64,000 nucleotides of DNA from Orenia metallireducens (lineage in GTDB: Bacteria; Bacillota; Halanaerobiia; Halobacteroidales; Halobacteroidaceae): contig NZ_LWDV01000009.1 in the NCBI RefSeq assembly GCF_001693735.1, positions 70,629-134,628 on the forward strand, written 5' to 3'. The notes under the pieces were generated by a model. It had not been told where the DNA came from, ran no database searches, and saw only the letters and a program-made list of their open reading frames with translations. Made by a program: the position numbers and the translations under genes. How positions within the stretch are numbered: the stretch's first letter is position 1; every line of letters starts with the position of its first letter. Positions 1 to 22,398 of the stretch are shown here, in pieces.

Positions 1-1613
1 TGAACAAGGGTGAGTTTACCAATATCTTAAAGAACTACATCAAGGTCTATCGTAGAGAAAGTAAAGCTACTCTAGTTTATGACTATGATAGTGTAGGTAA
101 TAGGCAAACTAAGAAGCTGGTAACCTCAACTACTCAGACGACAGATTATAGTTATTATGAAGGTACAAACCGTTTAATGAGCAATGGAGAGTATGCCTAT
201 GTCTATGATAATGCAGGAAATCTAATCAAAAAAGGGAATACCTATAGTATAGAAGATGGAAAAATAACCTTTACGGCTACCAAGGGAGAGGAAGTAGAGT
301 ACTGGGAGTATCAGTATAATCTCCAAGGTAGATTAAGCAGAGTCTATAAGAATGAAGAGTTAATCGCAGAATTCAGCTATGATGCCGATAATAGCAGAAT
401 CAGAACTATAGAGTATGACCATACAGGAACTGCTACAATCACTAATTTTGTTTATAATTTTGCTGGCAAAGTAATTTTTGAAGATGAGCAAGGAGAATAT
501 ACTTCATATATTTTCGCACTAAATAAACGGTATGCGAAACTTAACGGTATAGTTGGGCAAAGTACAGAGATAACTTACTTCCATCAAGATAACCTAGGCT
601 CAACGAGACTAATGACTGATGCCAGTGCTAATGTTGTCATGGATCAGGATTATCTGCCTTTTGGTGGAGACTTAGCGAGACCGAATCAGATTGAGGTACA
701 GAATGATACTAATGAAAGTTATAAGTATACAGGACAGAAGCAAGTTGTGTCGATAGGATTGTATTATTATGGGGCGAGATACTATGACCCTGAGATAGGT
801 AGGTTTACGAGAGAGGATACTTATCGTGGGGAGTTGGATGATCCGCAGAGTCAACACTTATATGTGTATGTAATGAATTCACCGTTAAGATACAATGACC
901 CAACAGGTCACAGTGCAGAAGAAGGCTATTTTGGAATGAATTATTTAGCAAACATGTGGGAAGGTGCTAAATTAAAATTTGAAGATATGTTTGGATTTAT
1001 GAATAAAGAAAAAGAAGAAAAAACTCCAGAAGTTAAAGAGACTTCAAATAATAATACTAATCAAGAGAAAATAGGAAATAGTTTCTTTAATCAAACTAGT
1101 CAAAATGATTCAGGAACTTTTAAATCAACTGCTTTTGTTCTTAATGGAGATGCTAAAGGACTTTTAAAAGGAGATACAAGCGATGCACTTAATACATCAT
1201 TTACTTTAGAAGGTATGTTAAATAAGACAGAAATTAATACTGAGGGTGCGATGATTAAAGGAGATGTGAATTTAGTAGGTGCTACTGGGAAAGCAGGTTT
1301 AGCAGGCTATGGAACAGATGGTAGTATAACTGGATTTGAAGTGGGGTTTGCTTTAGTTGAAGGGAATATAAAAGGTAAATTTGCTTCTACTGAGAATTAT
1401 GATTTTTATGTAACTGCTAATGGTTATGTAGGTGGGTATAAACTTGCAGCTGGATATTCAAAAGGAAAAGGACTTCATTTTACAGTTCCTATTCCTGAAA
1501 CGCCTGCAGGAGGAGGATTTGGTGTTGAATGGGTTAAAAGAAAACAGCCATCAACTGTTAAACAATTACCTGATTTTGGATTAGTAGGAGGTGTCCCTCA
1601 ACTTCAACAATAA
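1..1613 (+). CDS. Rhs/YD-repeat polymorphic toxin, C-terminal part (5' end outside window)
   Basis: The reading frame is open from the left edge (first full codon at 3), so the start lies upstream. The visible part has YD repeats and then the Rhs core end, with YYYGARYYDPEIGRF around 760-810 and the DPTG junction at 897-908. After the junction come about 238 residues of variable C-terminal domain: an acidic/lysine-rich linker, then a glycine-rich, probably beta-rich stretch with repeated G-containing turns. Rhs cores encapsulate such C-terminal toxins and release them at the DPxG region (family knowledge). I do not recognise the toxin fold. Two membrane-protein genes follow (1719, 2467), which would fit a membrane-acting toxin with membrane immunity, but that is inference. 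This is the only core copy here not shown to be 5'-truncated. Confidence 0.85.
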   Translation, partial: NKGEFTNILKNYIKVYRRESKATLVYDYDSVGNRQTKKLVTSTTQTTDYSYYEGTNRLMSNGEYAYVYDNAGNLIKKGNTYSIEDGKITFTATKGEEVEYWEYQYNLQGRLSRVYKNEELIAEFSYDADNSRIRTIEYDHTGTATITNFVYNFAGKVIFEDEQGEYTSYIFALNKRYAKLNGIVGQSTEITYFHQDNLGSTRLMTDASANVVMDQDYLPFGGDLARPNQIEVQNDTNESYKYTGQKQVVSIGLYYYGARYYDPEIGRFTREDTYRGELDDPQSQHLYVYVMNSPLRYNDPTGHSAEEGYFGMNYLANMWEGAKLKFEDMFGFMNKEKEEKTPEVKETSNNNTNQEKIGNSFFNQTSQNDSGTFKSTAFVLNGDAKGLLKGDTSDALNTSFTLEGMLNKTEINTEGAMIKGDVNLVGATGKAGLAGYGTDGSITGFEVGFALVEGNIKGKFASTENYDFYVTANGYVGGYKLAAGYSKGKGLHFTVPIPETPAGGGFGVEWVKRKQPSTVKQLPDFGLVGGVPQLQQ

Positions 1614-1718
1614 TTTATAATATCAAATAAAAATTATTGTTAATTTTTGTTAATTGATATATCTCTCTAGAATTAATAATTTATAGGGAGATATAGTATT
1701 CAAAAAGGGGATGAAATT

Positions 1719-2330
1719 ATGAAGTTAGAAAAAAATATTATAATGAGTTTAATATTAATAGTAATTATATTTATGGCTATTGGTGTTGCACATAGTCAAA
1801 ATAATTTAAATGATGAAAGTAAGGTTATTGAGAAATTTATGTATTATTTGGAGGATAGGGATTTTGATGGGATCAAAAAAATTGTTTTGAATTCTGATAC
1901 TGAGTTAAATATACTAAATTTCATGAATAAAAATAAAGTTGAAAATTTGACAGGTAAAGTTAAATCTATAGATAGGATTTCAGAAGATATGGTTAAATTA
2001 TATGTATATTATGATATTGAATTTAGAACAAAGTCAGGTATTATTAATAGTACTGCAGGTAATATATATTTCATAATAAAAATGGAGGATGAGAAATGGT
2101 ATATTAAGGAGACTAATTTTATTGAAGATATGAAAAATTCACAAATAATTATAAATATCTTGATGATAATTTATTTTGTAATTGTAATTCCTTTTCTGCT
2201 TTATATTAATCTTTGGCGTTCAGACTTAGAAGTTAAAGAAAAGAGATATTGGTCAGCAGTAATAGCTATTTTTAATATTATAGGACTTCTAATATTCTAT
2301 TTTAGAGTAATAAAAAAGAAAACTTCATAG
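1719..2330 (+). CDS. Membrane-anchored hypothetical protein, candidate immunity protein
   Basis: 203 aa with good ribosome site AAGGGGATG before ATG 1719. An N-terminal hydrophobic segment (about residues 9-26) is followed by an exposed acidic domain (about 30-140) whose pattern, ending in WYIKET, resembles the NTF2/lumazine-binding-like folds seen in small secreted proteins. Two more membrane segments lie near 145-165 and 180-198. It lies 105 nt after the Rhs toxin end on the same strand, the usual place for an immunity gene. Function is not recognised; immunity is inferred from position only. Confidence 0.55.
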   Translation: MKLEKNIIMSLILIVIIFMAIGVAHSQNNLNDESKVIEKFMYYLEDRDFDGIKKIVLNSDTELNILNFMNKNKVENLTGKVKSIDRISEDMVKLYVYYDIEFRTKSGIINSTAGNIYFIIKMEDEKWYIKETNFIEDMKNSQIIINILMIIYFVIVIPFLLYINLWRSDLEVKEKRYWSAVIAIFNIIGLLIFYFRVIKKKTS

Positions 2331-2466
2331 TAAATAAAATGTACCCTATAAGGTGGAAACTTGAAAAAAGAGTGTTCCTTATATGGTGGTTACATAAATT
2401 GGTCCTAATGTAAATGTTGACATTTATTCTAGTGAAAAATAAAACTTATTCAGGAAAAAGATAACA

Positions 2467-2757
2467 ATGATTAATAAATTAAAAAAAGTATTAAAAGTGT
2501 TCAAGTTTAAGAGGTTCATGAAACCTTTTTTAGTCATGTTCGGTTTTTTTGTTTTGATGAGTTTTTTTGATTCACTATTTTTATCAGTTAGAACTTTTGG
2601 TGATTTCTTAAAGATTCTATTAACATACTTTTTAATTATAATGGCGATTTTGATATTTTTAAAGGTATTTGAATTAATTGCTTCTTTTATGGGGGCTGGG
2701 AAGATATATGATAGTATGTTTAAAAAAAAAGATAAAGATTCTAATCAGAATAAATAA
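2467..2757 (+). CDS. Small membrane protein, unknown function
   Basis: 96 aa, basic N-terminus, two predicted membrane segments (about residues 22-40 and 48-72) and a lysine-rich tail. The ribosome site is weak (AGGAAAAAG before ATG 2467). It could be a second immunity component of the toxin at the left edge or an unrelated small membrane protein. No family recognised. The gap 2331-2466 shows no other gene. Confidence 0.5.
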   Translation: MINKLKKVLKVFKFKRFMKPFLVMFGFFVLMSFFDSLFLSVRTFGDFLKILLTYFLIIMAILIFLKVFELIASFMGAGKIYDSMFKKKDKDSNQNK

Positions 2758-2768
2758 AAGCAATAAAC

Positions 2769-2863
2769 TAGTAATGAGTATTAAGTAAGAGGTAAGGAAA
2801 TATAAATAAGTGGGTAGTGAGTGGTAAATAGATATTGCTCACATTATCCACTTGTTTTTTTAT
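2769..2863 (+). repeat. Dispersed GTAA/GTGA-type repeat plus hairpin terminator
   Basis: 2769-2797 is a run of short GTAATGAG/AAGTAAGAGG units of the dispersed-repeat type seen again at 17725, 21341, 27811 and 51872. Directly after it, AAGTGGGTAGTGAG (2808-2821) can pair imperfectly with the strand around 2837-2855, followed by a T run ending near 2863, giving a plausible terminator. Rhs homology restarts at about 2899. Confidence 0.4.
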
Positions 2864-2898
2864 TTTAGAATTTAATCATCACATGTTACTGATTTTTA

Positions 2899-4248
2899 GA
2901 ACATACTCATGACGGTAGCATCAAAGAGACTAACTTTGTTTACAGTGTCAGCGGGAAAGTTATCTTTGAAGATGAAAGTGGAGACTATACTTCTTACATC
3001 TTTGCACTGAATAAGCAATACGCTAAAATTAACGGTATCGTTGGAATTAGTACAGAGATAAGTTACTTCCATCAAGATAACCTAGGCTCAACGAGACTAA
3101 TGACTGATGCCAGTGCTAATGTTGTCATGGATCAGGATTATCTGCCTTTTGGTGGAGACTTAGCGAGACCAAATCAGATTGAGATACAGAATGATACTGA
3201 GGAAAGCTATAAGTATACAGGGCAGAAGCAAGTTGTGAGTATAGGACTGTATTATTATGGTGCGAGATACTATGATCCTGAGATTGGTAGGTTTACAAGA
3301 GAGGATAGTTATCGAGGAGAGCTAGATAAGCCACAGACACAACACTTGTATATTTATGTTACTAATAATTCGTTGAAGTATGTAGATCCGACAGGACATT
3401 ATCTTGAAACAGTCTGGGATGCAACTTCATTTGGAGTTGGATTATGGTCTTTAAAATCCAGTATTAGAGATAGAGATTGGTTAGGAGCAGGATTAGATAC
3501 TGTTGGGTTAATAGCTGATGGTGCTGCTACTATATTACCCATTATTCCTGGTGGAGCTAGTCAAGCAATTAAAGCTGCTAGATTTGCTAAACAGGCTAAA
3601 AGGGCATCAGATGTAGCGGATGTACTTGGTGGAGTACGTGAAATTAAGCATGGATTAGAGAAGGGTAGTGTAGTACAAACTGGATTAGGAGTAGTACAAG
3701 CAGGATTTGGAGCTAGAAGTGCACTTAGCTCAGAGGTTGCTGAGGCTGCTGGTGATGTTGGTAAGTTAAATAAAGTTAATAATTTGGATGTAGATAATGG
3801 ATATAATAGTAAGATAGATTTACAGTTGTTTGCTAAAAAATCAGGTGAATATTCATTATTACCAAATGAAGGAATGGTTGGTAGTTATGGAAGATTAGAT
3901 TATATTGGAGTTAAAGGTGATAATCTAACTCCTCATCATATGCCATCAGCAAAATATATAGAGCAGCATGGAGTTAACTATAGAGATGGTATATCTATGT
4001 TTGTGGAGCAACCTTATCCAGGAAGTGGAGGACGACATAGGTTAACTAAAACATATGGAAGAAATATGACAGATATTCAAAAACAAAATTATTATAATTT
4101 ATCTCCTAGGGATGCTTTAGCATATGACATTCGAGATTTAAGAAAAATATATATGGATCAAAATATTTATACTTCAGAAATAAGAAGTGGGTTATTAGAG
4201 GTTATTCAACAGAACAAAAGTGATTTTCCAGATTTGTATAAAAAATAA
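2899..4248 (+). CDS. Orphan Rhs tip with HH-motif toxin domain
   Basis: Rhs homology begins abruptly at about 2899 (EHTHDGS), just after an in-frame stop at 2890, and has no start codon or ribosome site there; the first ATG is internal at 3100. The core end is well kept (GARYYDPEIGRF, DPTG at 3385). The C-terminal domain (about 287 aa) has an alanine/glycine-rich pre-toxin helical segment, the linker KINLQLFAK-like KIDLQLFAKK, and then a toxin part with LTPHHMPSAKY and GGRHRLTKTYG, a histidine-rich signature suggesting a metal-dependent nuclease. Probably a displaced, silent cassette that becomes active only after recombination with a full-length rhs gene (inference). Partner gene at 4268. 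Confidence 0.7.
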   Translation, partial: EHTHDGSIKETNFVYSVSGKVIFEDESGDYTSYIFALNKQYAKINGIVGISTEISYFHQDNLGSTRLMTDASANVVMDQDYLPFGGDLARPNQIEIQNDTEESYKYTGQKQVVSIGLYYYGARYYDPEIGRFTREDSYRGELDKPQTQHLYIYVTNNSLKYVDPTGHYLETVWDATSFGVGLWSLKSSIRDRDWLGAGLDTVGLIADGAATILPIIPGGASQAIKAARFAKQAKRASDVADVLGGVREIKHGLEKGSVVQTGLGVVQAGFGARSALSSEVAEAAGDVGKLNKVNNLDVDNGYNSKIDLQLFAKKSGEYSLLPNEGMVGSYGRLDYIGVKGDNLTPHHMPSAKYIEQHGVNYRDGISMFVEQPYPGSGGRHRLTKTYGRNMTDIQKQNYYNLSPRDALAYDIRDLRKIYMDQNIYTSEIRSGLLEVIQQNKSDFPDLYKK

Positions 4249-4267
4249 AGTTAAGGGGGCTATAACA

Positions 4268-4750
4268 ATGAATATTTCTGAAATAACTGAAAAATTAAAA
4301 AGAAATAAATTATTAAGAAATAAAAAAGAAATAAATGGCTTTGAAGAAGCGTTAATGGAATTAAATGAAATAAATAATGTTAAAATTATTGGTGATTTAT
4401 GTAAAGGATTTGATGATAATACTAAAGAATATGAAATAATGTATAATGTATTACATGCAGTAGAAGATTATGAGGGAGAAGGTGCTTATATTGAATTATT
4501 AAAAATTACCCCATACATGATAGAAAATGATGCCAAGGAATGGAGCAAAAGACTGCATCGTAGAATATTAAATCATTCTCAAGAGCGTATTGAGTATATA
4601 AAAGCTTTAAAAAAAATGGATACTTCAATTCAAAATATTATTATAAAATTAATTCATGATATAAATAATGATGGGAAAAAATGGCTCAATAATGAAGAGC
4701 AGAAAAAGTTTGAAAATATTACAAATGAAGTACTAAATGAATTAAGATAA
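4268..4750 (+). CDS. Imm30-like immunity protein
   Basis: 160 aa from ATG 4268, chosen because AAGGGGG lies 9 nt upstream; a longer in-frame reading would start inside the previous gene. All-helical, charged; the central pattern EYEIMYNVLHAVEDYEG followed by a proline-containing helix resembles the Imm30 immunity family (family assignment from memory, moderate). It sits 20 nt after the HH-motif toxin tip and is the probable cognate antitoxin acting in the cytoplasm. Confidence 0.6.
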   Translation: MNISEITEKLKRNKLLRNKKEINGFEEALMELNEINNVKIIGDLCKGFDDNTKEYEIMYNVLHAVEDYEGEGAYIELLKITPYMIENDAKEWSKRLHRRILNHSQERIEYIKALKKMDTSIQNIIIKLIHDINNDGKKWLNNEEQKKFENITNEVLNELR

Positions 4751-4816
4751 TTTAAAAATTTATCTGGCTTTAATGATATAAAAGTTAGCTTATTAATAAA
4801 AAGCTTATTTAATTTA

Positions 4817-4862
4817 CCCTATAGAGTAGACAAATAAAGAGTCTATCCTATAGGGATTTTTC
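4817..4862 (+). terminator. Rho-independent terminator after Imm30-like gene
   Basis: CCCTATAG (4817-4824) pairs with CTATAGGG (4848-4855), extended by GTAGAC/GTCTA, then ATTTTT. It ends the second toxin-immunity cassette. Confidence 0.7.
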
Positions 4863-4904
4863 TTATGCAATATAAAATTTGTTAGATTTGTAATTATTAA
4901 TCCT

Positions 4905-7835
4905 TTGATTTATGAAGCAGGAATCTCTACTCCAACAGAGTACCGATATGATCCTAATGGAAACTTGGTTAAGAAGATCATGAGTAATGGTCTAGTAACT
5001 GAGTATGAATATAATAGCTTAAACCAGCAGATAAAAGAGATCAAAGCAGGAAATCAAGTCACAGTTTATAACTATGATGGAGCAGGTAAGCTAAAGACTA
5101 AGATTAATCCTTTAGGGATTAAAGAAGAGTATCTCTATTATCTAAATGGTCAGCTAGAAGAGGTTAACTATTATCAGAACCAAGAGGATGAAGTTGCTAA
5201 TGAGAGTGTAAGTTACGAGTATGATGATGCAGGGAATAGGGTCTTAGTAGAGAAAGAGGATAGTAGTATCGAACAGGTTTATGACCAGTTAGGAAGGATA
5301 GTTAGTGAGAGTAGAAGTATCTCAGGTAAAGTCTATAGTACCGAGTATAAGTATGATAAGTATGGTAACCTAATAGGAATCAAATATCCTGAGAGTGATG
5401 AATACTTAAACTATGGTTATGATAGTTTAAATCAGTTAAAGTACATCACGGGTATCGCAGGGGATAAAGACAATCCAGCCTTTAGCTATAATGATAATGG
5501 ACAAGTTACAGCAATGAAGTATGATAATGGGGTTACAACTAGTTATACCTATACTGATGTAGGTAGACCAGATACTATTATCACAAACAGAACAGATATT
5601 GAAACAACTACTACCGAAGAACTATTAAGTCTTGATTATGAATATGATGGAGCAGGCAATGTAACCCGTCGTAACAATAACGTCTATGAGTATGATGGAC
5701 TGAATCGACTGGTATCAGCTCAAGTGGAAGGTGACTTCTATGTCGATAATCCAGGTGATGTGGGGCATATTCTATCAGATTACTATGGTAGTAAAGGAAT
5801 AGATGTCTTAGTAAATCAGATTGAAGATATCACCTTAGATTATGATTCTGGTAGTGTCGGAGTCTCCTTTGGCTCAGAGGTTGAGAAGATAAGTAAGATA
5901 GAACTGAAGACTACTGGAATGGCTAATCATAGAATTAGTAAGAGAACACTGGATATCTATTATAGTAGTGATAATAGTAGCTACACTAAACTAAATCCAG
6001 ATAGTTGGGAGTATCAACAGGACTATAAAGGTGATATAACTATTATCATCCCAGATAGAATCACAGCTAAGTATCTAAAAATCCATAGTAAATATGATGA
6101 CCGAAACATTGACTTTGACCCTGTTAACAAGGGTGAGTTTACAAATATCTTAAAGAACTACATCAAGGTCTATCGTAGAGAAACAGAGGCTACTTTAGTT
6201 TATGACTATGATGATGTAGGAAACAGACTGAGCAAGAAACTAATTGCAGGCACAGTAGAAGAGACAAATTACTTTTACTATGAAGGTACTAACAGGCTAA
6301 TGAGCAATGGAGAATATGCTTACGTCTATGATGAAGCAGGAAATCTAATCAAAAAAGGGAATAACTATAGTATAGAAGATGGAGAAGTTACCTTTACTGA
6401 AACAAGTGGTGAGAAAATAGAGTACTGGGAGTATGAGTATAATCTACAGAATAGATTAAGCAAAGTCTACAAGAATGAAGAGTTAATCGCAGAATTTACT
6501 TATGATGGAGACAATAAGCGAATCAAGATTATCGAACATACTCATGATGGTAGTGTGAAAGAGACTAACTTTGTCCATAGTGCCAGTGGTAAAGTAATCT
6601 TTGAGGATGAAAGTGGAGACTACACATCCTATATCTTCGCACTGAACAAGCAGTATGCCAAGGTTAATGGTATCGTCGGAGTCAGCACAGAGATAACTTA
6701 CTTCCACCAAGATAACTTAGGAAGTACACGAGTTATGACTGATGCTAGTGGTAAGGTAGTTATGAATCAGGATTATCTTCCTTTTGGTGGCGATTTAACG
6801 AGACCGAATCAGATTGAGATACAGAATGATAGTGGAGAAAGTTATAAGTATACAGGGCAGAAGCAAGTTGTGAGTACCGGACTGTATTATTATGGTGCGA
6901 GATACTATGATCCTAGTATCGGAAGATTTATAACTGAGGATAGTTATCGTGGTGAGTTAGATAATCCGCAGAGTCAGAATGTGTATATTTATGTAACGCA
7001 GAATCCATTGAAGTATGTAGATCCTACAGGAAATACAGGTATTCTTGCTCAATTTATTACTAGTGTGGGTCCTTTTGCGACACCTCAGTCTAAAGAGGCT
7101 CATGATGAAGCTGCAAATGCTTTATGGAGAGGTGCACAAAAATTAAGGGAAGCACAGAAACAATTAGTTTCTACATTAGTTGTGAGTAATGTTAGAGCAT
7201 TTTCTTTCGTAAAGAATTTATTTACAAGGGATACCCCAAAAGTTGAACCTGAAGTTTTAGAACCAACAGAGAATTCAGAACCTAACATTCTACCATTTCC
7301 AACTACAACGGGTAGTAAGAATATATTTAATCCATTTCCAGCAAACCATGACGTTGATATGTCTACTCCCGGTATGGAGCCAGCACCAGAATCACTAACG
7401 GGGCCTAATGTAGAGGGTATGCCTTATAATGAAAGAAGTACTGATGATAATCTTATGTTGAGTAAGCAGGGAGCCTTTGATGGAGATATATTTGCTAGAC
7501 CTGATTATAATCTACCACCTAATAGTTATATATGGCCTTCAGAAAAAGCAGCAAGAAGGGCAGCGTTTCGGCATGCTAGTATTGGGAAACATGGTAAAAT
7601 AGATAAGTTTGAATTGGTAGATTTTTCAATAGGTTCACGTGATCCTTGGTTAGGAAATAGTGTAAAGAGACCTATATGGACATCTCATAATGGTAGAGAA
7701 GTTGCTCATGACATGTATGGGCATAAAGCAGAAAATACTCCTCCACATTATAATGTTTATATAGAGACTGAAAATGGTACGGAAAGTCATCATTATTTTT
7801 ATCCGAGTGATCATGATTGGACCAAGAATTATTGA
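4905..7835 (+). CDS. Large Rhs/YD-repeat protein fragment with discoidin-like insert and GH-PPH toxin tip
   Basis: About 976 aa of open frame from TTG 4905, but no ribosome site or secretion signal is seen, so the true start is probably lost. Roughly 15 YD repeats (patterns like YEYDGAGN, YDYDDVGNR) are interrupted at about residues 285-400 by a module with LDIYYSSDN, resembling an F5/8 type C (discoidin) carbohydrate-binding fold. The Rhs core end has GARYYDPSIGRF and DPTG at 7020. The C-terminal 270 aa contain a proline-rich linker and a domain with WPSEKAARRAA, AHDMYGH and PPHYNV, related by motif to the tips at 10 and 15 kb. Longest core copy in the window; could be the parental gene or a truncated one. 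Partner gene at 7859. Confidence 0.75.
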   Translation: MIYEAGISTPTEYRYDPNGNLVKKIMSNGLVTEYEYNSLNQQIKEIKAGNQVTVYNYDGAGKLKTKINPLGIKEEYLYYLNGQLEEVNYYQNQEDEVANESVSYEYDDAGNRVLVEKEDSSIEQVYDQLGRIVSESRSISGKVYSTEYKYDKYGNLIGIKYPESDEYLNYGYDSLNQLKYITGIAGDKDNPAFSYNDNGQVTAMKYDNGVTTSYTYTDVGRPDTIITNRTDIETTTTEELLSLDYEYDGAGNVTRRNNNVYEYDGLNRLVSAQVEGDFYVDNPGDVGHILSDYYGSKGIDVLVNQIEDITLDYDSGSVGVSFGSEVEKISKIELKTTGMANHRISKRTLDIYYSSDNSSYTKLNPDSWEYQQDYKGDITIIIPDRITAKYLKIHSKYDDRNIDFDPVNKGEFTNILKNYIKVYRRETEATLVYDYDDVGNRLSKKLIAGTVEETNYFYYEGTNRLMSNGEYAYVYDEAGNLIKKGNNYSIEDGEVTFTETSGEKIEYWEYEYNLQNRLSKVYKNEELIAEFTYDGDNKRIKIIEHTHDGSVKETNFVHSASGKVIFEDESGDYTSYIFALNKQYAKVNGIVGVSTEITYFHQDNLGSTRVMTDASGKVVMNQDYLPFGGDLTRPNQIEIQNDSGESYKYTGQKQVVSTGLYYYGARYYDPSIGRFITEDSYRGELDNPQSQNVYIYVTQNPLKYVDPTGNTGILAQFITSVGPFATPQSKEAHDEAANALWRGAQKLREAQKQLVSTLVVSNVRAFSFVKNLFTRDTPKVEPEVLEPTENSEPNILPFPTTTGSKNIFNPFPANHDVDMSTPGMEPAPESLTGPNVEGMPYNERSTDDNLMLSKQGAFDGDIFARPDYNLPPNSYIWPSEKAARRAAFRHASIGKHGKIDKFELVDFSIGSRDPWLGNSVKRPIWTSHNGREVAHDMYGHKAENTPPHYNVYIETENGTESHHYFYPSDHDWTKNY

Positions 7836-7858
7836 TTATTAACAAGAGGTGATAGTAG

Positions 7859-8458: not shown

Positions 8459-8492
8459 TTAGAAAAAATTATTAATTATTATTGCATAAATA

Positions 8493-9759: not shown

Positions 9760-9790
9760 TTCAATGTAGATTAAAAAGTAGTTGTTGAAT

Positions 9791-13906: not shown

Positions 13907-13908
13907 TT

Positions 13909-14184: not shown

Positions 14185-14271
14185 TAGATTTTTAAAATCG
14201 TTATATGTAGTTGTATTAATAATTTATCAAAGGAAGTCAGATTTCTGATGAGTTAAATAATTCCCTATTGA

Positions 14272-14379
14272 GATAGAATTATTAATAATGCTTTAGTATT
14301 AATTAATAGTTTTAGAACTGATTATAGAACTGCTCATGATGCTGCTATAAAATCAGGACGTTCATGGGAAGTTGAATAG
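14272..14379 (+). pseudogene. Second decapitated toxin tail
   Basis: Open from the stop at 14269 to TAG 14377, reading INNALVLINSFRTDYRTAHD and ending GRSWEVE. No start and no Rhs core. It ends 11 nt before a small gene with a very strong ribosome site, matching the toxin-end/immunity-start layout of the other cassettes. Toxin type unknown. Confidence 0.4.
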
Positions 14380-14390
14380 GAGGGGATTTT

Positions 14391-14648
14391 TTGGGAGCAT
14401 TTGTAGTATTAATAAAAGAGTTTGAAGATGAAGAGAAGGTTACTTATAATTTTGGTCCTGATGAAAGTATTATGGGAAAGATAGAATTGAATAAAAAAAC
14501 AAAAATATTTGCAGAAATTGAACCAGTAGATTCTAATGATTCAAGTAAATTTTATTTTAATAGGGCCGCCCAAAGGTTAGCAAAATGTTTAATTCGCGAA
14601 GGTGGCTCTTTTCCAGAAAAAACACATTTGAATCTTAAAAAGTTTTAA
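14391..14648 (+). CDS. Small candidate immunity protein, TTG start
   Basis: 85 aa from TTG 14391, with AGGAGGGG 7 nt upstream deciding the start. Acidic N-terminal beta-rich half, basic C-terminal half, no membrane segment. Not recognised; immunity inferred from its position behind the toxin tail at 14272. Confidence 0.5.
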   Translation: MGAFVVLIKEFEDEEKVTYNFGPDESIMGKIELNKKTKIFAEIEPVDSNDSSKFYFNRAAQRLAKCLIREGGSFPEKTHLNLKKF

Positions 14649-14662
14649 CAATAAAATTTATT

Positions 14663-14706
14663 AGCCTTGATTGAGTTGTTTTATGCTCTTTCAAGGTTTT
14701 TTTAAA
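14663..14706 (+). terminator. Weak hairpin terminator
   Basis: CCTTGATTGAG near 14665 can pair with CTCTTTCAAGG ending at 14696, followed by seven T. Confidence 0.55.
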
Positions 14707-14750
14707 TATATTATAATATGTCTATTGATTCTGTATAATGCAGAAATTGT

Positions 14751-15457
14751 CCAATAGATAATTTTATTAATGCAGCTAAAAGTGCTTATAATACAGGAAA
14801 ACAAGCCTATGGATATGTTACTTCCAATTCTTTAGGTCAAATCTATCAAGATGGTGTGGATTTAGCAACTTCTAAGTATAATGCATTCCAGCAATTATCA
14901 CCTGAAGAACAGGCTTATGTATTAGGACGTGGAGTTAATAATATAGGAATGGATGTTTTAGCTGAAGGAGCAGGAGCGGAAGCTTTAGATAAGGTTGCTG
15001 ATGCTGCTAAGAATAGTGGTTTGGTTAATAAGTTTAATAATTTGGATGTAGATAATACTGGAACAGTAAATCGACTTCACAAAAGCGTGGAAGCCGCACG
15101 TCATAAAGCATATATCTTTTAGAAAGTGCTGTAGAGCGTCATGGAGGAGAGTTACTTGACAATGGTGCGAAATTTCCAAGTCAAAGAGCTGCTAAGCAAG
15201 CAGCTTCAGAAGTAGCAGGAAATTTGGGGAATATGCCTCAAGTAAAATATATGGATGAATATAGATTTCCAAGTCATGTAGATGATTATACTAAATTAAA
15301 ATTAAGAAATTCAAGTAGGGTTTATTATAAATTTGATATAGATGGAAATGTAGGTTGGAGACATGATATGTTTGGTCATGATTTAGATACAAGACCACAT
15401 TTCAATGTTGAATTTAAAGATGCAGATATTGATTTACATTTATATTATGATAAATAG
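14751..15457 (+). pseudogene. Headless toxin: pre-toxin segment plus FGH-PHFNVE domain, frameshifted
   Basis: Starts inside a pre-toxin segment (PIDNFINAAKSAYN) that is nearly identical to 13208-13530 of the metallopeptidase tip, then switches to a toxin domain related to 9843-10940 (FPSQRAAKQAASE, GWRHDMFGH, RPHFNVEFK, ending YYDK). No Rhs core precedes it. The frame breaks at a T run (15117-15120): it ends at TAG 15120, while the next frame continues ESAVERHGG to 15457; adding one T restores one frame. Either a real inactivating deletion, slippage control, or a sequencing error. Partner at 15470. Confidence 0.7.
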
Positions 15458-15469
15458 GGAGATGATATA

Positions 15470-15856
15470 ATGTTAATTAGAACAAAGTTTATTTGTGAAT
15501 GTGCACATCCAAGAAAGTCTATTTTAATGGATGAAAATGAAAATATTGAAGATTATTATGAAATGCATAGATGTCCAAAGTGTGATGCAGAGGTAGTAGC
15601 TGTATATAGAGAAATTCCTAGTGATAGAAAAGTAGTAATTAGAATAGAGAATGCTGAACATTATGATAGAAGAAGAGATAGATATCAAGGGGAAAAAAAT
15701 TATTATATTGTAATAACTGATTGGCAAGGCGAAGAACATTGTCGTGCTGCACATCCTGTATCATGGCATAAACTTGTTCGTCATTTAGAACAATTAAGAG
15801 AGATGGATATTGAGAATGCAATTAAATATATGAAACGTGAAAAATTAACCATATAA
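15470..15856 (+). CDS. Cysteine-pair immunity-like protein, paralogue of the gene at 10953
   Basis: 128 aa, ATG 15470 with AGGGAGATG upstream, 12 nt after the toxin stop, the same spacing as at 10953. Shares with its paralogue the CPKC motif, an EEHCRAAHPVSWHKLVRHLE block and the ending YMKREKLTI. Very probably the cognate immunity protein of the FGH-PHFNVE toxin. Confidence 0.65.
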   Translation: MLIRTKFICECAHPRKSILMDENENIEDYYEMHRCPKCDAEVVAVYREIPSDRKVVIRIENAEHYDRRRDRYQGEKNYYIVITDWQGEEHCRAAHPVSWHKLVRHLEQLREMDIENAIKYMKREKLTI

Positions 15857-15943
15857 AACTGTATTTATAATCTGATATTATTTCATCTTATCCCATTAAA
15901 AACCCCAAAATTACTTCTAATAAATAAGAAGGAGAGATTGAGT

Positions 15944-16240
15944 ATGAGTGATTTAAAAAAAAGTATCAAATTATTTGACGGCATGAAATTAATTAATGGA
16001 AAAGTTTATTGTCCTCTCTGTGAAGAAAATGGACCTATATTTAAAACTAGACTAAATAGAGATAAATTAGATATTTATGTCTGTGATGAATGTGACGGGT
16101 TGTGGTTTATGAATAATGATTATGTTTTATATGAAAAAGAAGGTATGCAGAATTTAGAAGAATATATAGAGAAACAATTTGGTGATTTAGAGAAGACTTA
16201 TTTACTTTACTTTGATTATGATTGGTATAAGGAACAATAA
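15944..16240 (+). CDS. Zinc-ribbon small protein, unknown function
   Basis: 98 aa from ATG 15944 (AAGGAGAG 9 nt upstream; a TTG 6 nt earlier is too close to the site). CPLCEENG and CDECDGLWF form a zinc ribbon, followed by an acidic helical C-terminus. Lies 87 nt after the previous immunity-like gene; possibly an orphan immunity gene whose toxin is gone. Confidence 0.55.
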   Translation: MSDLKKSIKLFDGMKLINGKVYCPLCEENGPIFKTRLNRDKLDIYVCDECDGLWFMNNDYVLYEKEGMQNLEEYIEKQFGDLEKTYLLYFDYDWYKEQ

Positions 16241-16273
16241 TTGTCTAAAAATTAAAACAGTAATATTATAACT

Positions 16274-16311
16274 TAAAGGATAGTATTTCTATAGAGGAAT
16301 GCTATCCTTTA
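16274..16311 (+). terminator. Terminator after zinc-ribbon gene
   Basis: AAAGGATAGTATT (from 16275) pairs with AATGCTATCCTTT (ending 16310). Confidence 0.75.
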
Positions 16312-16360
16312 TTATTTAAGATATAGAGAAGAAGTTACTAAATGAACAAATAGAAGCTTA

Positions 16361-16500
16361 GCCTACTACTTGGGAAGTGCATTTTTAGTAACTAACGAAA
16401 GTGGAGAAACAGTCTGGAGTACCGAGTATACACCATTCAGTGGACTGACGATTGAAGAAGGAGTCCTTGATAAAGCAGCGAAGTTTACATGTAAGGACAT
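16361..16500 (+). pseudogene. Rhs core remnant (second lineage)
   Basis: Short piece reading LGSAFLVTNESGETVW and STEYTPFSGLTIEEG, then KFT, homologous to the end of the Rhs pseudogene at 17615-19170. Normal Rhs proteins continue after KFTGKE into the GLYYFGARYYD block; here the sequence is replaced by the small repeat at 16501. No start, no toxin tip. Confidence 0.55.
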
Positions 16501-16577
16501 AATAAAGATAATTGAGAATGCAGAATATAGAATTGAGAATTAAGTTTTTTAAAATCTTTAATTATTAATTCTCAATA
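16501..16577. repeat. Short palindromic repeat replacing an Rhs tip (copy 1)
   Basis: Contains ATAATTGAGAATGCAGAAT followed by a second TTGAGAATTAA, which pairs with TTAATTCTCAA near 16566-16576. A near-identical element occurs at 19171-19240, at the same position relative to Rhs sequence. Confidence 0.6.
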
Positions 16578-16659
16578 AGTCCATGAATATCATCTTTTAA
16601 TCTACTTTAAAATAAGTTATAATAAAAATAAGCATAGATTAGATAAAGGAGTAGTTAAA

Positions 16660-17538
16660 ATGTCTGAAAGATTAATGAATCCTAAAATAGATTTTGTATT
16701 TAAGTAGATATTTGGTTCGCAAAAACATCCAGAAATCTTAATAGCTTTTTTAAACGGTGTTTTTGGAAGTAAAGGAACAGAAGAAGAGATAGTAGATGTA
16801 CAAATAGAAAATCCAGATATAGATAAAGATTGGGAAGATGATAAATTTTCTCGGTTAGATGTTAAGGCAACAACTAATAATAATATGAAGGTTAATATAG
16901 AGATACAATTAAAAAATCAATACAATATGAAGAAAAGAACCTTGTATTATTGGAGTAAGTTATTTGAGTCACAAATGAAAGCAGGAGATCCCTATGATAA
17001 GTTACAGAAAACAGTAACGATAAATATTTTAGATTTTGAATATTTGCTAAGTAATAGTAGATATCATAATACTTATATTTTAAAGGAAAAAGAAACAAAT
17101 GAAGTATTAACTGATTTGCAAGAGATACATTTTATTGAATTACCGAAGTTAGATGAAGAGCAATTTAAAGGTAAAGAGATAAATATAGTTGAAAAGGATG
17201 CTTTGCTACCATGGTTACTATTTTTGAAGAATCCTGAAAGTGAGGTGGTCAAAGTGATTGAAGAGAGAATAAAAGAATTACAAGAAGCTGCTGAAGCTTT
17301 AGAGGTGTTAAGCCATGACGAGAAGGCAAGAGAAGTTTATGAGAGTAGGCAAAAAGCAATACATGATCAGATAAGTAATATAAAAGGAGCTGCAAAAGAG
17401 GCAAGAGAAGAAGGTATAAGAGAAGGTATAGAGAAAATAGTGAAAAGTATGTTGATAAATGGGATTGGTGTTGAGGAAATAGTAAAGATGACAAGTTTAA
17501 ATAAGAGAGAAATTGAAAAGATAAAAAAAGAAATTTAA
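16660..17538 (+). pseudogene. Rpn-type PD-(D/E)XK nuclease gene with early amber stop
   Basis: ATG 16660 with AAAGGAG upstream reads MSERLMNPKIDFVFK and then TAG at 16705, where relatives have a lysine codon; translation continues in frame as IFGSQKHPEI through an intact domain to 17538. One substitution (AAG to TAG) explains it. The family (PF12784-like, recombination-promoting nuclease) has the DFVFKxIFG start, a D-x-K and an E-x-Q catalytic region (DVKATT, IEIQ). A coiled-coil tail and a C-terminal helix-turn pattern follow. Internal starts could yield a truncated protein lacking the N-terminus. Confidence 0.8.
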
Positions 17539-17546
17539 AACCGTAG

Positions 17547-17573
17547 CAACCCTCTTAAAAGGGTTGTTTTTTT
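17547..17573 (+). terminator. Terminator after Rpn pseudogene
   Basis: GCAACCC and GGGTTG flank TCTTAAAA, followed by seven T. Confidence 0.8.
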
Positions 17574-17614
17574 ATGGTCAAACTGGAAATTAGACTAAAA
17601 TCAAAGATTTAGCA

Positions 17615-19170
17615 GTAAATATAACGATTAAAGAATATGATGACTTGAATCGAGTAGCTAAAATCATTTATCCAGAGGGTAATAGTGAAAAGTTCTAGTA
17701 TGTTTCAGTTACTATATCTTAATATTTACTCGTCACTGCTTTGAATGGGTAGAGTAACAAAAGTTAATAGTCCAACAGAAAACTCAGTAAGCTATGATTA
17801 TAATAAATTAGGACAATTAACTAAAGTCCTAGGCTGTATTGACCAAGCACCAGTCTATAATACTAGAGGGATGCTGGAGACTTTAACAGCAGTTAATGGT
17901 ATCTCAACAAGCTATGCTTATGATACAAATGGTCGTTTAACTGACTTAAACTATAATAATCAAGAAAACTTATTAAAAGGTTATAAGTTAGGCTATGATG
18001 ATGCTAATAATATCATCACTAAAAATGACAACTCCTATCAGTATGATGCTTTAAATCGTTTAATCTTTGCTAGTTTAAAAGGGAAGTTTGAAAATAATTC
18101 TGATGAAGAAGAGCAGAAGATAGGTAGAACGATCTCAGATTATTCAGGAGAGAAATCTCTAGAGATCTTAGCAGATCAAGCAGAGGCAATTGAGCTTGAC
18201 TATGGAGCAGGAAGTATTGGAGTAGACCTACTAGGCAAATGCAAGATATCTAAGGTAGAGTTAACACCTAAGAGCTTGGAGCACCGAGTAGATAAGAGGA
18301 ACTTAGAAGTATAATATATCCTTGATAATTATCAGTATACTAAGGTTGAGAATTGGAACTTTGTAGCTAAAGGTTCAGGAGAGATAGTGATAGTTTTAGA
18401 CCAACCAGTGGAAGCAAGGTATCTGAAGGTTAAGAGTTACTTTGATGATCGAGATACAGAGTTTAACCCTGTTAACCTAGCTCAATTTGTCAATGAAGCT
18501 GAAGATATAATCAAGGTCTACTATTATGTAGAGAATAGATATGAGCAATATAGCTATGATGAAGTAGGAAATAGAACTAATGAAGTTATTACTCAGCGAT
18601 ATGCAGTAGAGAGAGGATATGAATATTATCCAAATTCAAACCTACTAAAATCTAATGGTAAGTATGGCTTTGAGTATGATGATAATGGTAACTTGATTAG
18701 GAAAGGAAGAGGTTATACCCTTGCAGAAGATGGCAGTATAATCTTTGACCAAGAAGAGTACTGGGAGTATGAGTATGACCTACTGAATCGACTAGTCAAG
18801 TTCAGCAAAAACAATCAAGTAGTCGCAGAATATGTGTATGATGAAGCAGGACTGAGAATCAAGAAAGAAAGTCCAGTAAAGACAACCTATTATGTCTTTA
18901 CTCAAAGCGGAAATCTCCTCTATGAGCAGAAAAACGGTAAATACCTAGAGTATATCTATGTAGCAGGTAAACACTTTGCGAGGATAGATGGAGATTTAAA
19001 TTCTGGCGAGACCAAGAAATATTTCTACCATACCGACTATCTAGGAAGTAGAGTCTTAGTTACAAATGCAGATGGCGAGACAGTCTGAAGTGCCGAGTAT
19101 ACACCATTTGCTAGAACTACCATGGAAGAAGGAATCCTTGATAAGATAGCGAAACTTACAGGTGAGTACA
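17615..19170 (+). pseudogene. Rhs/YD-repeat pseudogene, second lineage, no toxin tip
   Basis: YD repeats from VNITIKEYDDLNRVA; broken at 17696 by a TAG and about 45 nt of foreign sequence containing the dispersed repeat TTTACTCGTCACT, then resuming near 17742. Further in-frame stops: TAA 18312 (a tyrosine codon in the paralogue) and TGA 19086 (TGG in the copy at 16361). It contains the same discoidin-like insert as the gene at 4905 (about 18120-18480). It ends at KLTGE where the repeat at 19171 begins, so no DPxG or toxin follows. Clearly inactive. Confidence 0.8.
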
Positions 19171-19240
19171 TAATAAAGATAATTGAGAATGCAGAATGTA
19201 GAATTGAGAATTAAGTTCTTTAAAATTTTTAATTCTCAAC
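19171..19240. repeat. Short palindromic repeat replacing an Rhs tip (copy 2)
   Basis: Same element as 16501-16577: TAATAAAGATAATTGAGAAT, then TTGAGAATTAA pairing with TTAATTCTCAA at 19229-19239. The following 19241-19546 holds no gene; a promoter for the Rpn gene is likely there but not clear. Confidence 0.6.
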
Positions 19241-19546
19241 TTTGTTATGGTGTTATGATTAGAAAATAGGAAGGTTTACCTAAGAACAACTATTTTTAAA
19301 AAATCATTCTATGAGTTTTTCAGAAATACTAAGCTCCTGAATAAGTTCAGCAGTAAGAATCAACTGTTTTATTAATTTTCATTTTATTACTGATGATACT
19401 TATCTAGGGAATATAAATGATTCAAAGATTTGGAATTTATAAATAACGAGTGTTATAGTTTTAATTGAAAATTGAATCCATCTTCATTTATCATAATCAT
19501 TATGTTATAATTAAAACATAATTGTAAAACAGGAGGTTTAATTAAA

Positions 19547-20401
19547 ATGTGTCGTTTAAACCCAAGAGTGGACTTTGCCTTTAAAAAGTTATTCGGTAGT
19601 GAAGAGAATAAAGATATCTTAATCTCTTTTATCAATTCGGTTTTAGATAAAGAGGAGCAGATTAAAGATTTAGTCTTAAAGAATCCTTATAATTCTAAGA
19701 ACTTTAAAAATGATAAATTATCAATCCTTGATGTTAAAGCAGTAGATGAAAAAGGCAATTGGTACAACATTGAGATGCAGATAACAGACCAAGATTATTA
19801 TGACAAAAGAGCCTTATATTACTGGGCTAGATTATATACGGGACAGTTAGAATCAGGAATTAACTATGATAAATTAGAAAAGACGATAGTAATTAATGTA
19901 CTTAACTTTGATTGTTTAGATGAAGAAGATTATCATAATATTTATAAATTATTTAATTCTAAATCTAAAGAAGAGTTAATAGATCATTTAGAAATTCATT
20001 TTATTGAGTTAGAGAAGTATAATAAAGATTTAAGTGAAATGCAGACTGCTTTAGATAGATGGACAGAATTTCTAAAAAGAGCTCATGAATATAATAAAGA
20101 TTGGATTCCTGCTCAATTAGCAGAGGTTAAAAGTATAGAAAAAGCGATTAAGGTACTTGATGCAATGTATTTAAATGAAGATGAACGTGAGCTTTATGAA
20201 GCAAGATTGAAATGGTTACGAGATGAAGAGATGGCATTGAAGAAAGCTGAAGAAAAGGGTAGAGAAGAAGGTAGAAGAGAAGAAAAAAAAGAAATGGTAA
20301 ATAATCTACTTAAATTGGGAGTAGAAATAGATAAAATAGTTGAAGCAAGTGGATTATCTAAGGAAGAAATAGAAGATTTAAAAGAGAGTAATAAAGATTA
20401 A
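19547..20401 (+). CDS. Rpn-family PD-(D/E)XK nuclease/transposase-like protein, copy A
   Basis: 284 aa, ATG 19547 behind CAGGAGG. N-terminal PRVDFAFKKLFGS, then LSILDVKAVDEKG and YNIEMQI, the D...D-x-K and E-x-Q elements of the PDDEXK_2 (Rpn) family. The C-terminal third is a charged coiled coil with EKGREEGRREEKK and ends in a helix-turn-helix-like LSKEEIEDL segment. Rpn proteins are DNA endonucleases that promote RecA-independent recombination in E. coli (family knowledge). About 85% identical to the next gene, a recent tandem duplication. Confidence 0.88.
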   Translation: MCRLNPRVDFAFKKLFGSEENKDILISFINSVLDKEEQIKDLVLKNPYNSKNFKNDKLSILDVKAVDEKGNWYNIEMQITDQDYYDKRALYYWARLYTGQLESGINYDKLEKTIVINVLNFDCLDEEDYHNIYKLFNSKSKEELIDHLEIHFIELEKYNKDLSEMQTALDRWTEFLKRAHEYNKDWIPAQLAEVKSIEKAIKVLDAMYLNEDERELYEARLKWLRDEEMALKKAEEKGREEGRREEKKEMVNNLLKLGVEIDKIVEASGLSKEEIEDLKESNKD

Positions 20402-20432
20402 ACTATCATTGTCCAAAGGAGGTTTAACAAAG

Positions 20433-21299
20433 ATGTGTCGTTTAAATCTTAGGGTAGACTTTGCTTTTAAAAAGTTATTCGGTAGTGAAGAGAATAAAAA
20501 TATTTTAATCTCTTTTATCAATTCTGTTTTAGATGAAGAAGATCAGATAACAGATATAATTTTAAAGAACCCTTATAATTCTAAAAGCTTTAAAAATGAC
20601 AAGTTATCAATCCTTGATGTTAAGGCAGTAGATGAAAAGGGAGTCTGGTATAATATCGAGATGCAGATTACAGACCAAGATTATTATGACAAAAGAGCCT
20701 TATATTACTGGGCTAGATTATATACAGGTCAGCTAGAGTCGGGAGTTAACTATGATAAATTAGAAAAGACAATAGTGATTAATGTTTTAAACTTTAACTG
20801 TTTAGATGAAGAAGATTATCATAATGTCTATAAATTATTCAATACTCAGTCTAAAGAAGAGTTAATAGATCATTTAGAGATACATTTTATTGAGCTAGAG
20901 AAGTACAATAAAGACTTAAGTGAGGTACAGACTGCTTTAGATAGATGGACAGAGTTTTTAAAGAGAGCCCACGAATACAATAAAAATCAGATTCCTGCTC
21001 AATTAGCTGAGATTAAAAGTATTGAAAAGGCGATTAGAGTATTGGATGCAATGTATTTAAATGAGGATGAACGTGAATTATATGAAGCTAGGTTAAAATG
21101 GTTAAGAGATGAAGAGATGGCGCTGAAGAAGGCTGAGGAGAAAGGGAGAGAAGAGGGGAGAAGAGAAGGAGTAGAAGAAGGAAAGAAAGAGATGGTAAAT
21201 AATCTACTTAAACTGGGGGTAGAAATAGATAAAATAATTGAAGCAAGTGGATTATCTAAAGAAGAAATACAAAATTTAAGAAATAGTATTGAAGATTAG
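20433..21299 (+). CDS. Rpn-family PD-(D/E)XK nuclease/transposase-like protein, copy B
   Basis: 288 aa from ATG 20433, chosen because AAAGGAGG lies 9 nt upstream; an earlier in-frame start at 20409 would include the ribosome site. Same architecture as copy A, with a slightly longer REEGRREGVEEGKKE repeat in the coiled coil. Only 31 nt separate the two genes, so they share a transcript ended by the hairpin at 21306. Confidence 0.88.
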   Translation: MCRLNLRVDFAFKKLFGSEENKNILISFINSVLDEEDQITDIILKNPYNSKSFKNDKLSILDVKAVDEKGVWYNIEMQITDQDYYDKRALYYWARLYTGQLESGVNYDKLEKTIVINVLNFNCLDEEDYHNVYKLFNTQSKEELIDHLEIHFIELEKYNKDLSEVQTALDRWTEFLKRAHEYNKNQIPAQLAEIKSIEKAIRVLDAMYLNEDERELYEARLKWLRDEEMALKKAEEKGREEGRREGVEEGKKEMVNNLLKLGVEIDKIIEASGLSKEEIQNLRNSIED

Positions 21300-21305
21300 A
21301 TTATC

Positions 21306-21336
21306 AGACAACCTATAAAAAGGTTGTCTTTTTTTA
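21306..21336 (+). terminator. Terminator after Rpn pair
   Basis: AGACAACC (21306-21313) pairs with GGTTGTCT (21322-21329), then a run of T. Confidence 0.85.
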
Positions 21337-21340
21337 GATA

Positions 21341-22398
21341 TTTACTAGTTATTCATTACTGCTATTAGAGTATGATGCAGGGAATCTGATAAAAAAAAGA
21401 ATACCTATAGTATAGAAGATGGAGAAGTAACCTCTACTGAAACAAGTGGTGAGGAAGTAGAATACTGGGAGTATCAGTATAATCTCCAGAATAGATTGAG
21501 CAGAGTTTATAAGAATGAAGAGTTAATCGTAGAATTCAGTTATGATGGAGACGATAAGCGAATTAAAGCAATAGAACATACTCATGATGGCAATAGCAAA
21601 GAGACTAACTTCGTCTATAGTGTCAGTGGCAAGGTAATTTTTGAGGATGAACAAGGTGCATATACTTTTTATATTTTTGCACTGAACAAGCAATATGCCA
21701 AAATTAATGGTATTGTGGGAGTAAGCACAGAGATAACTTACTTCCACCAAGATAACCTAGGCTCAACGAAACTGATGACTGATGCTAGTGGTAAAGTAAT
21801 CATGGATCAAGATTACTTGCCTTTTGGTGGAGATTTAGCGAGACCTAATCAAATTGAAGTACAGAATGATAGTGGTGAGAGTTATAAGTATACAGGGTAG
21901 AAGCAAGTTGTGTCGATAGGGCTGTATTATTATGGTGCGAGATACTATGACCCTGAGATTGGTAGGTTTACGAGAGAGGATACATATAGAGGAAGATTGG
22001 ACAATCCACAGAGTCAGAACGTAATGAATTCTCCTTTAAAATATATTGACCCTAGTGGTCATATACCATTGTTACCAATAAGTTGGGCACCTGCTTGGCA
22101 TCTAAATAGAAATGAATATAATAATGTAATAGATCCAGATACAGGAGAGCGTTATACTAGAGATAAACTGAGGAAATTGGTAAAGATAGGTAAAGCAACA
22201 ATGCCAGCTAAATTATACCATGAAATGGGACAAGGTCATAAAGGTAATGAGAAATATGTTCTTGAAGATGGAACGGAAATTATAATGGATGGTAATGAAT
22301 TTATAATTAATATAGCTCCAACCGTAGTTAGTACTGGAGTTCTATTGTTTAGAAAAAGTGATGTTGAATTAGAGTTAGAATTAAAAATTATAAGATGA
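21341..22398 (+). pseudogene. Orphan Rhs tip, frameshifted and with amber stop, short C-terminus
   Basis: Preceded by the dispersed repeat TTTACTAGTTATTCATTACT (21341-21360). Core homology starts near 21366 (LEYDAGNLIKK), loses frame at an A run near 21397, then reads from RIKAIEHTHDG to YKYTG and TAG 21898, where sister copies have CAG; it continues in frame through GARYYDPEIGRF to DPSG at 22048. Only about 116 residues follow (KLYHEMGQGHKGNEKY region), with no recognised toxin motif. No immunity-like gene follows closely. Inactive as read. Confidence 0.7.

Follow-up and report, generated by a model that had tools for sequence, protein, structure and literature searches.

How did one locus of Orenia metallireducens come to hold seven ends of an Rhs core, head to tail, each leading into a tip of its own? 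The stretch analyzed here (the window) comprises 64,000 nucleotides, C9:70629-134628 of a 3.47-Mb genome in 12 contigs (G000), and the array occupies its left part. Throughout, T1-T7 denote the core copies and their tips, I the small genes, and X and RhsX the pieces of a divergent core. Based on the comparisons described below, this is very probably an array of displaced tips behind the gene for an apparently secreted Rhs polymorphic toxin.

Seven core ends behind one Rhs gene

The D of the core-end motif DPxG lies at 897, 3385, 7020, 8628, 10126, 13037, and 22048, on the + strand in all seven cases, which are exactly the positions at which a first-pass annotation of the same letters had placed seven head-to-tail core ends. 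The GARYYDP block that it had assigned to every one of them is present, as GARYY[DE]P, in six and has been lost in tip 4. When a core-end query of 67 amino acids (aa) was searched against the whole genome, it matched seven places, every one within the array; six copies were found at E 2.5e-32 or better, values at which a chance origin was rejected, and tip 4 at E 4.3e-6. The hallmarks of an Rhs polymorphic toxin are therefore present: RHS repeats (PF05593) in the main gene, a TIGR03696 match (E 3.4e-18), and DPxG in 7/7 core ends.

Upstream of the window, the parent Rhs frame (2967 aa) runs from C9:61728 to a stop right after a single N at C9:70628, one base left of the window and inside the core. 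By eye its N terminus resembles a signal peptide, and the protein has F5/8C, Ig-like, and RHS repeat domains; a Pfam scan of this main gene found no known delivery domain. At the N the reading frame shifts and ∼590 core bases are absent relative to T3, so we read the N as a scaffold gap in a repeat. Joined across this one-N gap, tip 1 (3-1613) is probably the 3' end of the main gene, which would place its presumed start 8.9 kb upstream, beyond the gap.

Downstream of the main gene, which the N interrupts in the assembly, core fragments with unrelated tips follow on the same strand. In T3 coordinates their left ends fall at 4911 (T3), 6331 (T7), 6534 (T2), 6645 (T6), and 6747 (T5); tip 4 retains only about the last 100 core bases, and an extra tip at 14750 has no core. 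All left ends of the aligned copies differ, as the first-pass annotation had noted, and one uniform cut site was rejected for this array, whereas such a site holds for 14/16 orphans in the larger array of G012, a genome of this class that is assembled in one contig. The frames of T2, T3, T5, and T6 are still open; the T7 core is broken by an in-frame stop, and the divergent core is also broken. This core, a duplicate fragment, three PDDEXK_2/Rpn genes, and a KptA gene had been overlooked in the earlier inventory, which was right about the core ends.

One orphan records an apparent change of the main gene's end. Upstream of the gap, the main gene and T3 are 95.7% identical over 626 bp, with a synonymous divergence (dS) of 0.14; downstream, T1 and T3 share 77-79% identity (dS 1.03). 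Window bases 3-42 match T3 at 39/40 positions, and each full 40-base bin beyond them matches at 20 to 37. The simplest reading is that T3 was formerly the attached end of the main gene, or was exchanged with it, before a foreign core end bearing tip 1 took over.

The orphans and the small genes behind them differ in their predicted translation starts, which, like the hairpins below, were scored with energy models. The main gene start has a ribosome site of -13.3 kcal/mol, and 71 internal main-gene starts used as a reference have a mean of -3.3 and a 5th percentile of -7.2 kcal/mol. Among the T2-T6 orphans the best start scores -6.5 kcal/mol (a TTG inside tip 5) and the rest -5.4 or weaker, so that those listed fall within the range of the internal starts. 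The broken pieces reach -6.0 (T7), -7.0 (an ATG inside the toxin end of tip 6b), and -7.4 (a GTG in the divergent core). In contrast, 10 of the 13 small genes have ribosome sites of -7.3 to -13.2 kcal/mol; with few exceptions, orphans without good starts stand before small genes that have them. The claim that the first copy alone has a start with a ribosome site is correct in that the other copies' starts are weak, but this copy, too, lacks its own start within the window, where candidates score -4.2 or weaker. In addition, tips 5 and 6b have frameshifts in their toxin ends, whereas the small genes beside them are open.

A generic terminator scan found 9 candidates against 6.0 expected (1-20000) and 3 against 1.2 (20001-24000), which is not clearly above chance. 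Each of 14 intergenic stretches was therefore tested for its best hairpin-plus-T score against 60 dinucleotide shuffles of itself. Eight beat 60/60 shuffles. Seven of these close a cassette, and the eighth (T1-I1a) separates tip 1 from the first of its small genes. Nine of the stretches lead into a truncated core or a tip without core (I1b-T2, I2-T3, I3-T4, I4-T5, KptA-T6, I6b-T6b, Zn-X, Rpn1-RhsX, and Rpn3-T7), and six of these beat all shuffles; the score was reached by 2/60 shuffles for Rpn1-RhsX, and I4-T5 (7/60) and I2-T3 (33/60) were not significant. As for the other five, I5-I5b and T1-I1a beat all shuffles, and I1a-I1b (13/60), I7-end (22/60, with a hairpin counted on the opposite strand and not significant on the + strand), and I6-I6b (57/60) were not significant. 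Thus, the earlier statement that most tips are followed by a small gene and a terminator holds as "most" and not as "all", and the T1-I1a hairpin does not fit a rule of one terminator per cassette end.

At these junctions the core starts a few to ∼180 bases 3' of the hairpin. Compared by eye, G001, the genome of a sister species in the same genus, has a homologue of tip 1's second small gene, a hairpin, and a T2-type core end in the same order. Since this junction is common to both genomes, it is probably older than the present tips.

Displacement of tips and competing explanations

Where computable, pairwise dS among six G000 core ends is 0.70-1.80, one pair being saturated and the T5/T7 pair covering only 23 codons, and the ratio of nonsynonymous to synonymous divergence (dN/dS) is 0.015-0.19, mostly near 0.1, as under purifying selection. 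Nucleotide identity is 75-84% in window pairs of at least 79 codons; near-identical attached and detached cores were found only in the upstream part of the main gene and T3. These values indicate that the cores diverged as working genes in different lineages, not as silent copies on site. The nine core ends of G000 and G001 form a star-like tree in which the G000 cores make one group in 0/200 bootstrap trees. T1 and T2 share 119/120 bases within a background of 81%, and in a test for mosaic tracts this pair lay beyond all permutations (family-wise 0/500), with T2/T6 at p 0.024. The high dS, the mosaicism, and the lack of grouping by species argue for a shared pool of cores rather than local duplication.

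Related arrays occur elsewhere in the class, as Rhs core ends were found in 11/49 genomes at E 0.001 or better, 10 of them over the cut-off; the nearest named match to the core end is a Halanaerobiales metagenome-assembled genome (62%). The matching array of G001 has no main gene, and a core piece stands right after gspD. At E 1e-3, the window's toxin ends are absent from the array stretches of G001 (C3 and C7) and G002, and T5 resembles G001 only upstream of its toxin end. In 7/7 arrays of the one-contig genomes G004, G012, G017, and G040, the copy lying farthest upstream is the one with the longest open frame. The displacement by recombination proposed in the first-pass annotation fits best, given the mosaic cores and the different toxin ends of G001. 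Its description of the array as unusually dense is not supported, because G012 has two runs, one of 17 core ends within 41 kb and one of 9 within 37 kb.

In the model that we favor, the main gene would bear one attached toxin tip at a time. DNA from a relative would recombine into the core, so that the main gene gains another core end with its tip and immunity gene while the previous tip, still joined to part of its core, moves downstream. Orphan tips without good starts would not be expected to be translated, and most small genes behind them, which keep ribosome sites, may protect against siblings that are still firing those tips. Because most orphans retain core, they could return to a main gene by homologous recombination, here or in another strain.

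Several observations weigh against this model. Displacement is deduced from one strain of the species and was not seen directly, and it is the scaffold alone that links the main gene to tip 1. None of the tip stretches scanned with family profiles scored over the cut-off, and among the candidate immunity genes only the Imm30 gene behind tip 2 did. Three small genes have weak ribosome sites (2467, -4.3; 22939, -6.4; KptA, -1.0 kcal/mol), and the GTG of the divergent core (-7.4) matches the weakest of the good immunity sites (-7.3). The core tree has 0/6 strong inner branches, and at this low resolution the G000 cores may still share one origin; 34 of the 36 pairs fail the family-wise mosaic test. 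Decay is also uneven: tip 4, in the middle of the array, has the most worn core, unlike a simple age gradient.

It is possible, if rather unlikely, that the array is instead kept mainly for its small protective genes and that the tips are leftovers, rarely or never reloaded. The open downstream genes, mostly with ribosome sites, beside the frameshifted tips 5 and 6b fit such a bank, as do a gene with no tip of its own (11603-11956) and two extra genes (14391-14648 and the Zn-ribbon gene). It accounts less well for the open core fragments T2, T3, T5, and T6 or for the mosaic tracts in T1, T2, T3, and T6, which indicate that some of them do recombine. Nor do the immunity genes show the stronger constraint, since dN/dS is ∼0.49 between immunity genes 5 and 6b and 0.28 for the paired toxin stretch.

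Programmed switching, in which tips would be swapped at a high rate within one lineage as in antigenic variation, is improbable, although core stretches are shared and the 14 orphans of G012's larger array that have a common left end share it together with its partly palindromic spacer, 13 of them over ∼250 bp and one over 195 bp. That common left end indicates that varied cut points are not general. In the window, core ends only ∼75-84% identical would be a poor substrate for such swaps, no recombinase was found among 27 window translations scanned with Pfam (Rpn-type nucleases aside), and a simple swap would delete the intervening tips, as argued in the available part of PMC3150448.

Tandem copying of one Rhs gene, with the copies now pseudogenes, would produce the head-to-tail layout and the broken T7 and divergent cores, and T3 does keep 2.1 kb of core that is near the main gene over 626 bp. 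This origin is nevertheless highly improbable, since core-end dS is at least 0.70 with dN/dS mostly near 0.1, the tips are unrelated, and the cores of G000 and G001 do not separate. Scarcely credible is an artefact in which separate full-length genes, broken by assembly error (the refutation that the first-pass annotation had itself named), were mis-joined as tandem repeats: such an array is a hard repeat and the core has an N immediately left of the window, but the window has no N, all seven core-end places of the genome are in the array, and seven arrays of like build occur in four one-contig genomes.

The displacement layout itself is known from the Rhs C-terminal arrays of Enterobacteriaceae (Jackson et al. 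2009, PMC2935791), where, in the portion of that paper available, an intact gene is likewise followed by same-strand fragments with varying core lengths and unrelated tips, most without start sites and some frameshifted. Attached and detached cores are described there as identical or almost so (91.6% of amino acids in Serratia), whereas those of the window differ at 16-25% of DNA positions (dS 0.70-1.80) and are partly mosaic; the carrier here also differs in being an apparently Sec-type secreted protein, with the signal read by eye, in a diderm firmicute class. The contrast in ribosome sites is known for cdi orphans. Orphan cdiA-CT/cdiI and rhs-CT modules, including an array of eleven orphan pairs, were described by Poole et al. 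(2011, PMC3150448), and in the text available most orphan toxins lack initiation signals while an orphan immunity gene keeps its Shine-Dalgarno site. Function was shown in living cells in that work, whereas here it is predicted from sequence, and the Cdi delivery protein differs. What is new here is the taxon, the diverged cores, and the link to a gsp operon. These results extend the enterobacterial mechanism to a class of anaerobic halophiles, in which an array can hold as many as 17 core ends. The diverged, partly mosaic cores suggest that a tip passes between lineages together with its own core end, in contrast to the identical cores described for enterobacteria.

A neighboring type II secretion operon

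The G000 gsp operon (K, E, F, H, I, J, L, M, and D recognized) ends 0.4 kb before a gene for a 2678-aa fn3/PKD protein, after which comes the main gene. The matching array of G001 stands behind a related operon (GspE 72% and GspD 63% identical), with the operon on C3 directly before the orphans, and in G040 a gsp operon ends ∼0.2 kb before the main Rhs frame. A secretin gene also lies ∼1 kb upstream of the second array of G012 and ∼12 kb downstream of the C7 array of G001. Among genomes of at most 12 contigs (G000, G001, G004, G012, G017, and G040; 11 Rhs loci), a secretin is within 12 kb of 5/11 loci, a distance chosen after seeing the data, and one in G017 is at 23 kb. With a rough chance of 0.04-0.06 per locus, P is ∼4e-5 to 3e-4, where loci within one genome are not independent.

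As PF03934 matched mostly other long frames and missed the array's gspK, it was dropped as a GspK marker and GspL was taken instead. GspL was matched strongly (E 1e-13 or better, a limit set once the list had been seen) in 9 of the 11 genomes with Rhs core ends and in 3 of the remaining 38 (Fisher 5e-6, uncorrected for kinship), and the two co-occur in four families. Based on these associations, it is conceivable, though we hold this only tentatively, that the Rhs toxin of diderm Firmicutes of this class is exported by the type II secretion system (T2SS), often encoded beside it, and that secretion operon, main gene, and spare-tip array form one exchangeable weapon locus.

Other positions of these genes speak against the T2SS link. 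GspL is near an array only in G000, G001, and G040; it lies ∼20 kb off in G017, more than 1 Mb from both arrays in G012, and on a different contig from the Rhs matches in G002, G013, G019, and G021. The distance in G012 led us to lower our already tentative estimate slightly. Five loci, three in G004 and two in G012, have no secretin nearby, although a gspK-like gene does follow one of the G004 arrays.

The Sec/T2SS-type toxins of Zhang et al. (2012, PMC3482391) have a signal peptide, which the N terminus of the main protein resembles, and they share with this locus RHS repeats, a variable toxin end, an immunity gene (here a candidate), and standalone spare cassettes. The table of that paper, in the part available, gives no signature neighbors for the T2SS/Sec route, whereas T2SS genes lie beside several arrays here. 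For Halothermothrix orenii, two secretins in large T2SS operons have been reported, and "Rhs" is absent from the main text of that paper as available (PMC2626281). A literature search for Rhs arrays linked to a gsp operon found none, in a coverage that excluded most subscription journals. If the proposed export is true, the T2SS would be a genuine delivery machine for large Rhs toxins and not a mere label for Sec-exported ones; the link suggests an outer-membrane route for Rhs toxins in diderm Firmicutes. The 2678-aa fn3/PKD protein (L001:2572-10608), between gspD and the main Rhs gene, is a possible surface partner.

Tips, small genes, and other cargo

The features of the array are collected in Table 1.

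Table 1. Coordinates of the array features in the window (ribosome-site scores in kcal/mol)
Feature	Position	Strand	Remarks
Main-gene core end (tip 1 core)	1-911	+	TIGR03696 E 3.4e-18; extends upstream across one-N scaffold gap
Tip 1, presumed attached toxin	912-1613	+	glycine-rich; no family match
Small gene after tip 1, candidate immunity	1719-2330	+	2TM below cut-off; ribosome site -10.5
Second small gene after tip 1	2467-2757	+	ribosome site -4.3; 65% homologue at G001 matching array
Terminator-like hairpin closing cassette 1	2804-2865	+	truncated core next, as in G001
Orphan core fragment T2	2897-3399	+	no ribosome site
Tip 2	3400-4248	+	Ntox10 below cut-off
Imm30 (PF15565) gene, candidate immunity	4268-4750	+	E 6.4e-24
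Orphan core fragment T3, longest	4909-7034	+	first 626 bp 95.7% identical to main gene
Tip 3	7035-7835	+	H-D-x-x-G-H motif; end akin to those of tips 5 and 6b
Candidate immunity gene 3	7859-8458	+	ribosome site -12.7; no family match
Terminator-like hairpin	8493-8534	+	beats shuffles
Worn core remnant of tip 4	8540-8642	+	
Tip 4	8643-9473	+	domain in 1/398 sampled genomes of phylum (G000 itself)
Candidate immunity gene 4	9529-9759	+	
Hairpin, 16 pairs, T-poor tail	9788-9824	+	not significant in shuffle test
Orphan core fragment T5	9852-10140	+	
Tip 5	10141-10893	+	toxin end frameshifted relative to tip 6b
Candidate immunity gene 5	10953-11330	+	66% identical to 15470-15856
Terminator-like hairpin	11345-11368	+	
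SUKH_5-like gene without tip	11603-11956	+	below Pfam cut-off
KptA/Tpt1 RNA 2'-phosphotransferase	11971-12525	+	ribosome site -1.0
Terminator-like hairpin	12536-12564	+	
Orphan core fragment T6	12660-13048	+	
Tip 6	13049-13906	+	HExxH (HERMH): metallopeptidase-like by motif only; no family match
Candidate immunity gene 6	13909-14184	+	
Small gene	14391-14648	+	ribosome site -13.2
Terminator-like hairpin	14666-14702	+	
Core-less tip 6b, two frames	14750-15457	+	pre-toxin part matches tip 6 at 95% over 303 bp; toxin end resembles that of tip 5
Candidate immunity gene of tip 6b	15470-15856	+	
Zn-ribbon gene	15944-16240	+	
Terminator-like hairpin	16274-16311	+	
Remnant of divergent core end	16362-16563	+	81% identical to 19033-19234
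PDDEXK_2 (Rpn-type) gene 1	16681-17538	+	in-frame stop
Divergent Rhs core, broken, without tip	17745-19088	+	∼35-39% identical
PDDEXK_2 gene 2	19547-20401	+	
PDDEXK_2 gene 3	20433-21299	+	
Terminator-like hairpin	21306-21329	+	
Orphan core fragment T7, in-frame stop	21372-22059	+	
Tip 7	22060-22398	+	
Last small gene of array, candidate immunity	22939-23187	+	ribosome site -6.4

The C-terminal domain of tip 2 is 55% identical to the end of a 503-aa protein in a genome that shares only the phylum with O. metallireducens; we take this carrier to be PAAR-like. Tips 3, 5, and 6b have related putative toxin ends with an H-D-x-x-G-H motif; a structure model of this end had a mean predicted local distance difference test score (pLDDT) of 43 and was not used. 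Searches of solved structures with tips 4 and 6 returned chance matches only (E 0.93 and 0.36), the core end had no relatives in the viral contigs searched, and one T2 cassette stretch had no match among plasmids.

Three of ∼8 PDDEXK_2 (Rpn-type) loci of the genome are inside the array (16681-17538, 19547-20401, and 20433-21299). The divergent-core remnants at 16362-16563 and 19033-19234 have an identical abnormal continuation, and an Rpn-type gene follows each. A core simply split by an Rpn gene was rejected, because the core pieces flanking Rpn2/3 overlap and do not abut. In relatives, one of the three Rpn-type genes of G001 is in the matching array, one of G002 (C7:317-1003) has a broken piece of Rhs core (C7:1093-1278) ∼0.1 kb away, and the copies listed for G004 and G021 are not beside Rhs matches. 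The KptA/Tpt1 gene (11971-12525), which has no strong ribosome site, may serve immunity or repair or be cargo.

Arrays of other genomes differ in detail. In G012:C1:1938000-1997700 (L027-L029), 8/16 orphans have the tip family of the main gene at ∼90% identity, like an allele archive. In G004:C1:340000-370000 (L019-L020), the orphans at 18287 and 21794 keep a signal-like N terminus with the core end in another frame, and they look like internal deletions of a full gene. The main Rhs frame of G017 (L033:7164 onward) has, by eye, an N-terminal region like that of the G000 main gene; the carrier itself therefore seems common to several families.

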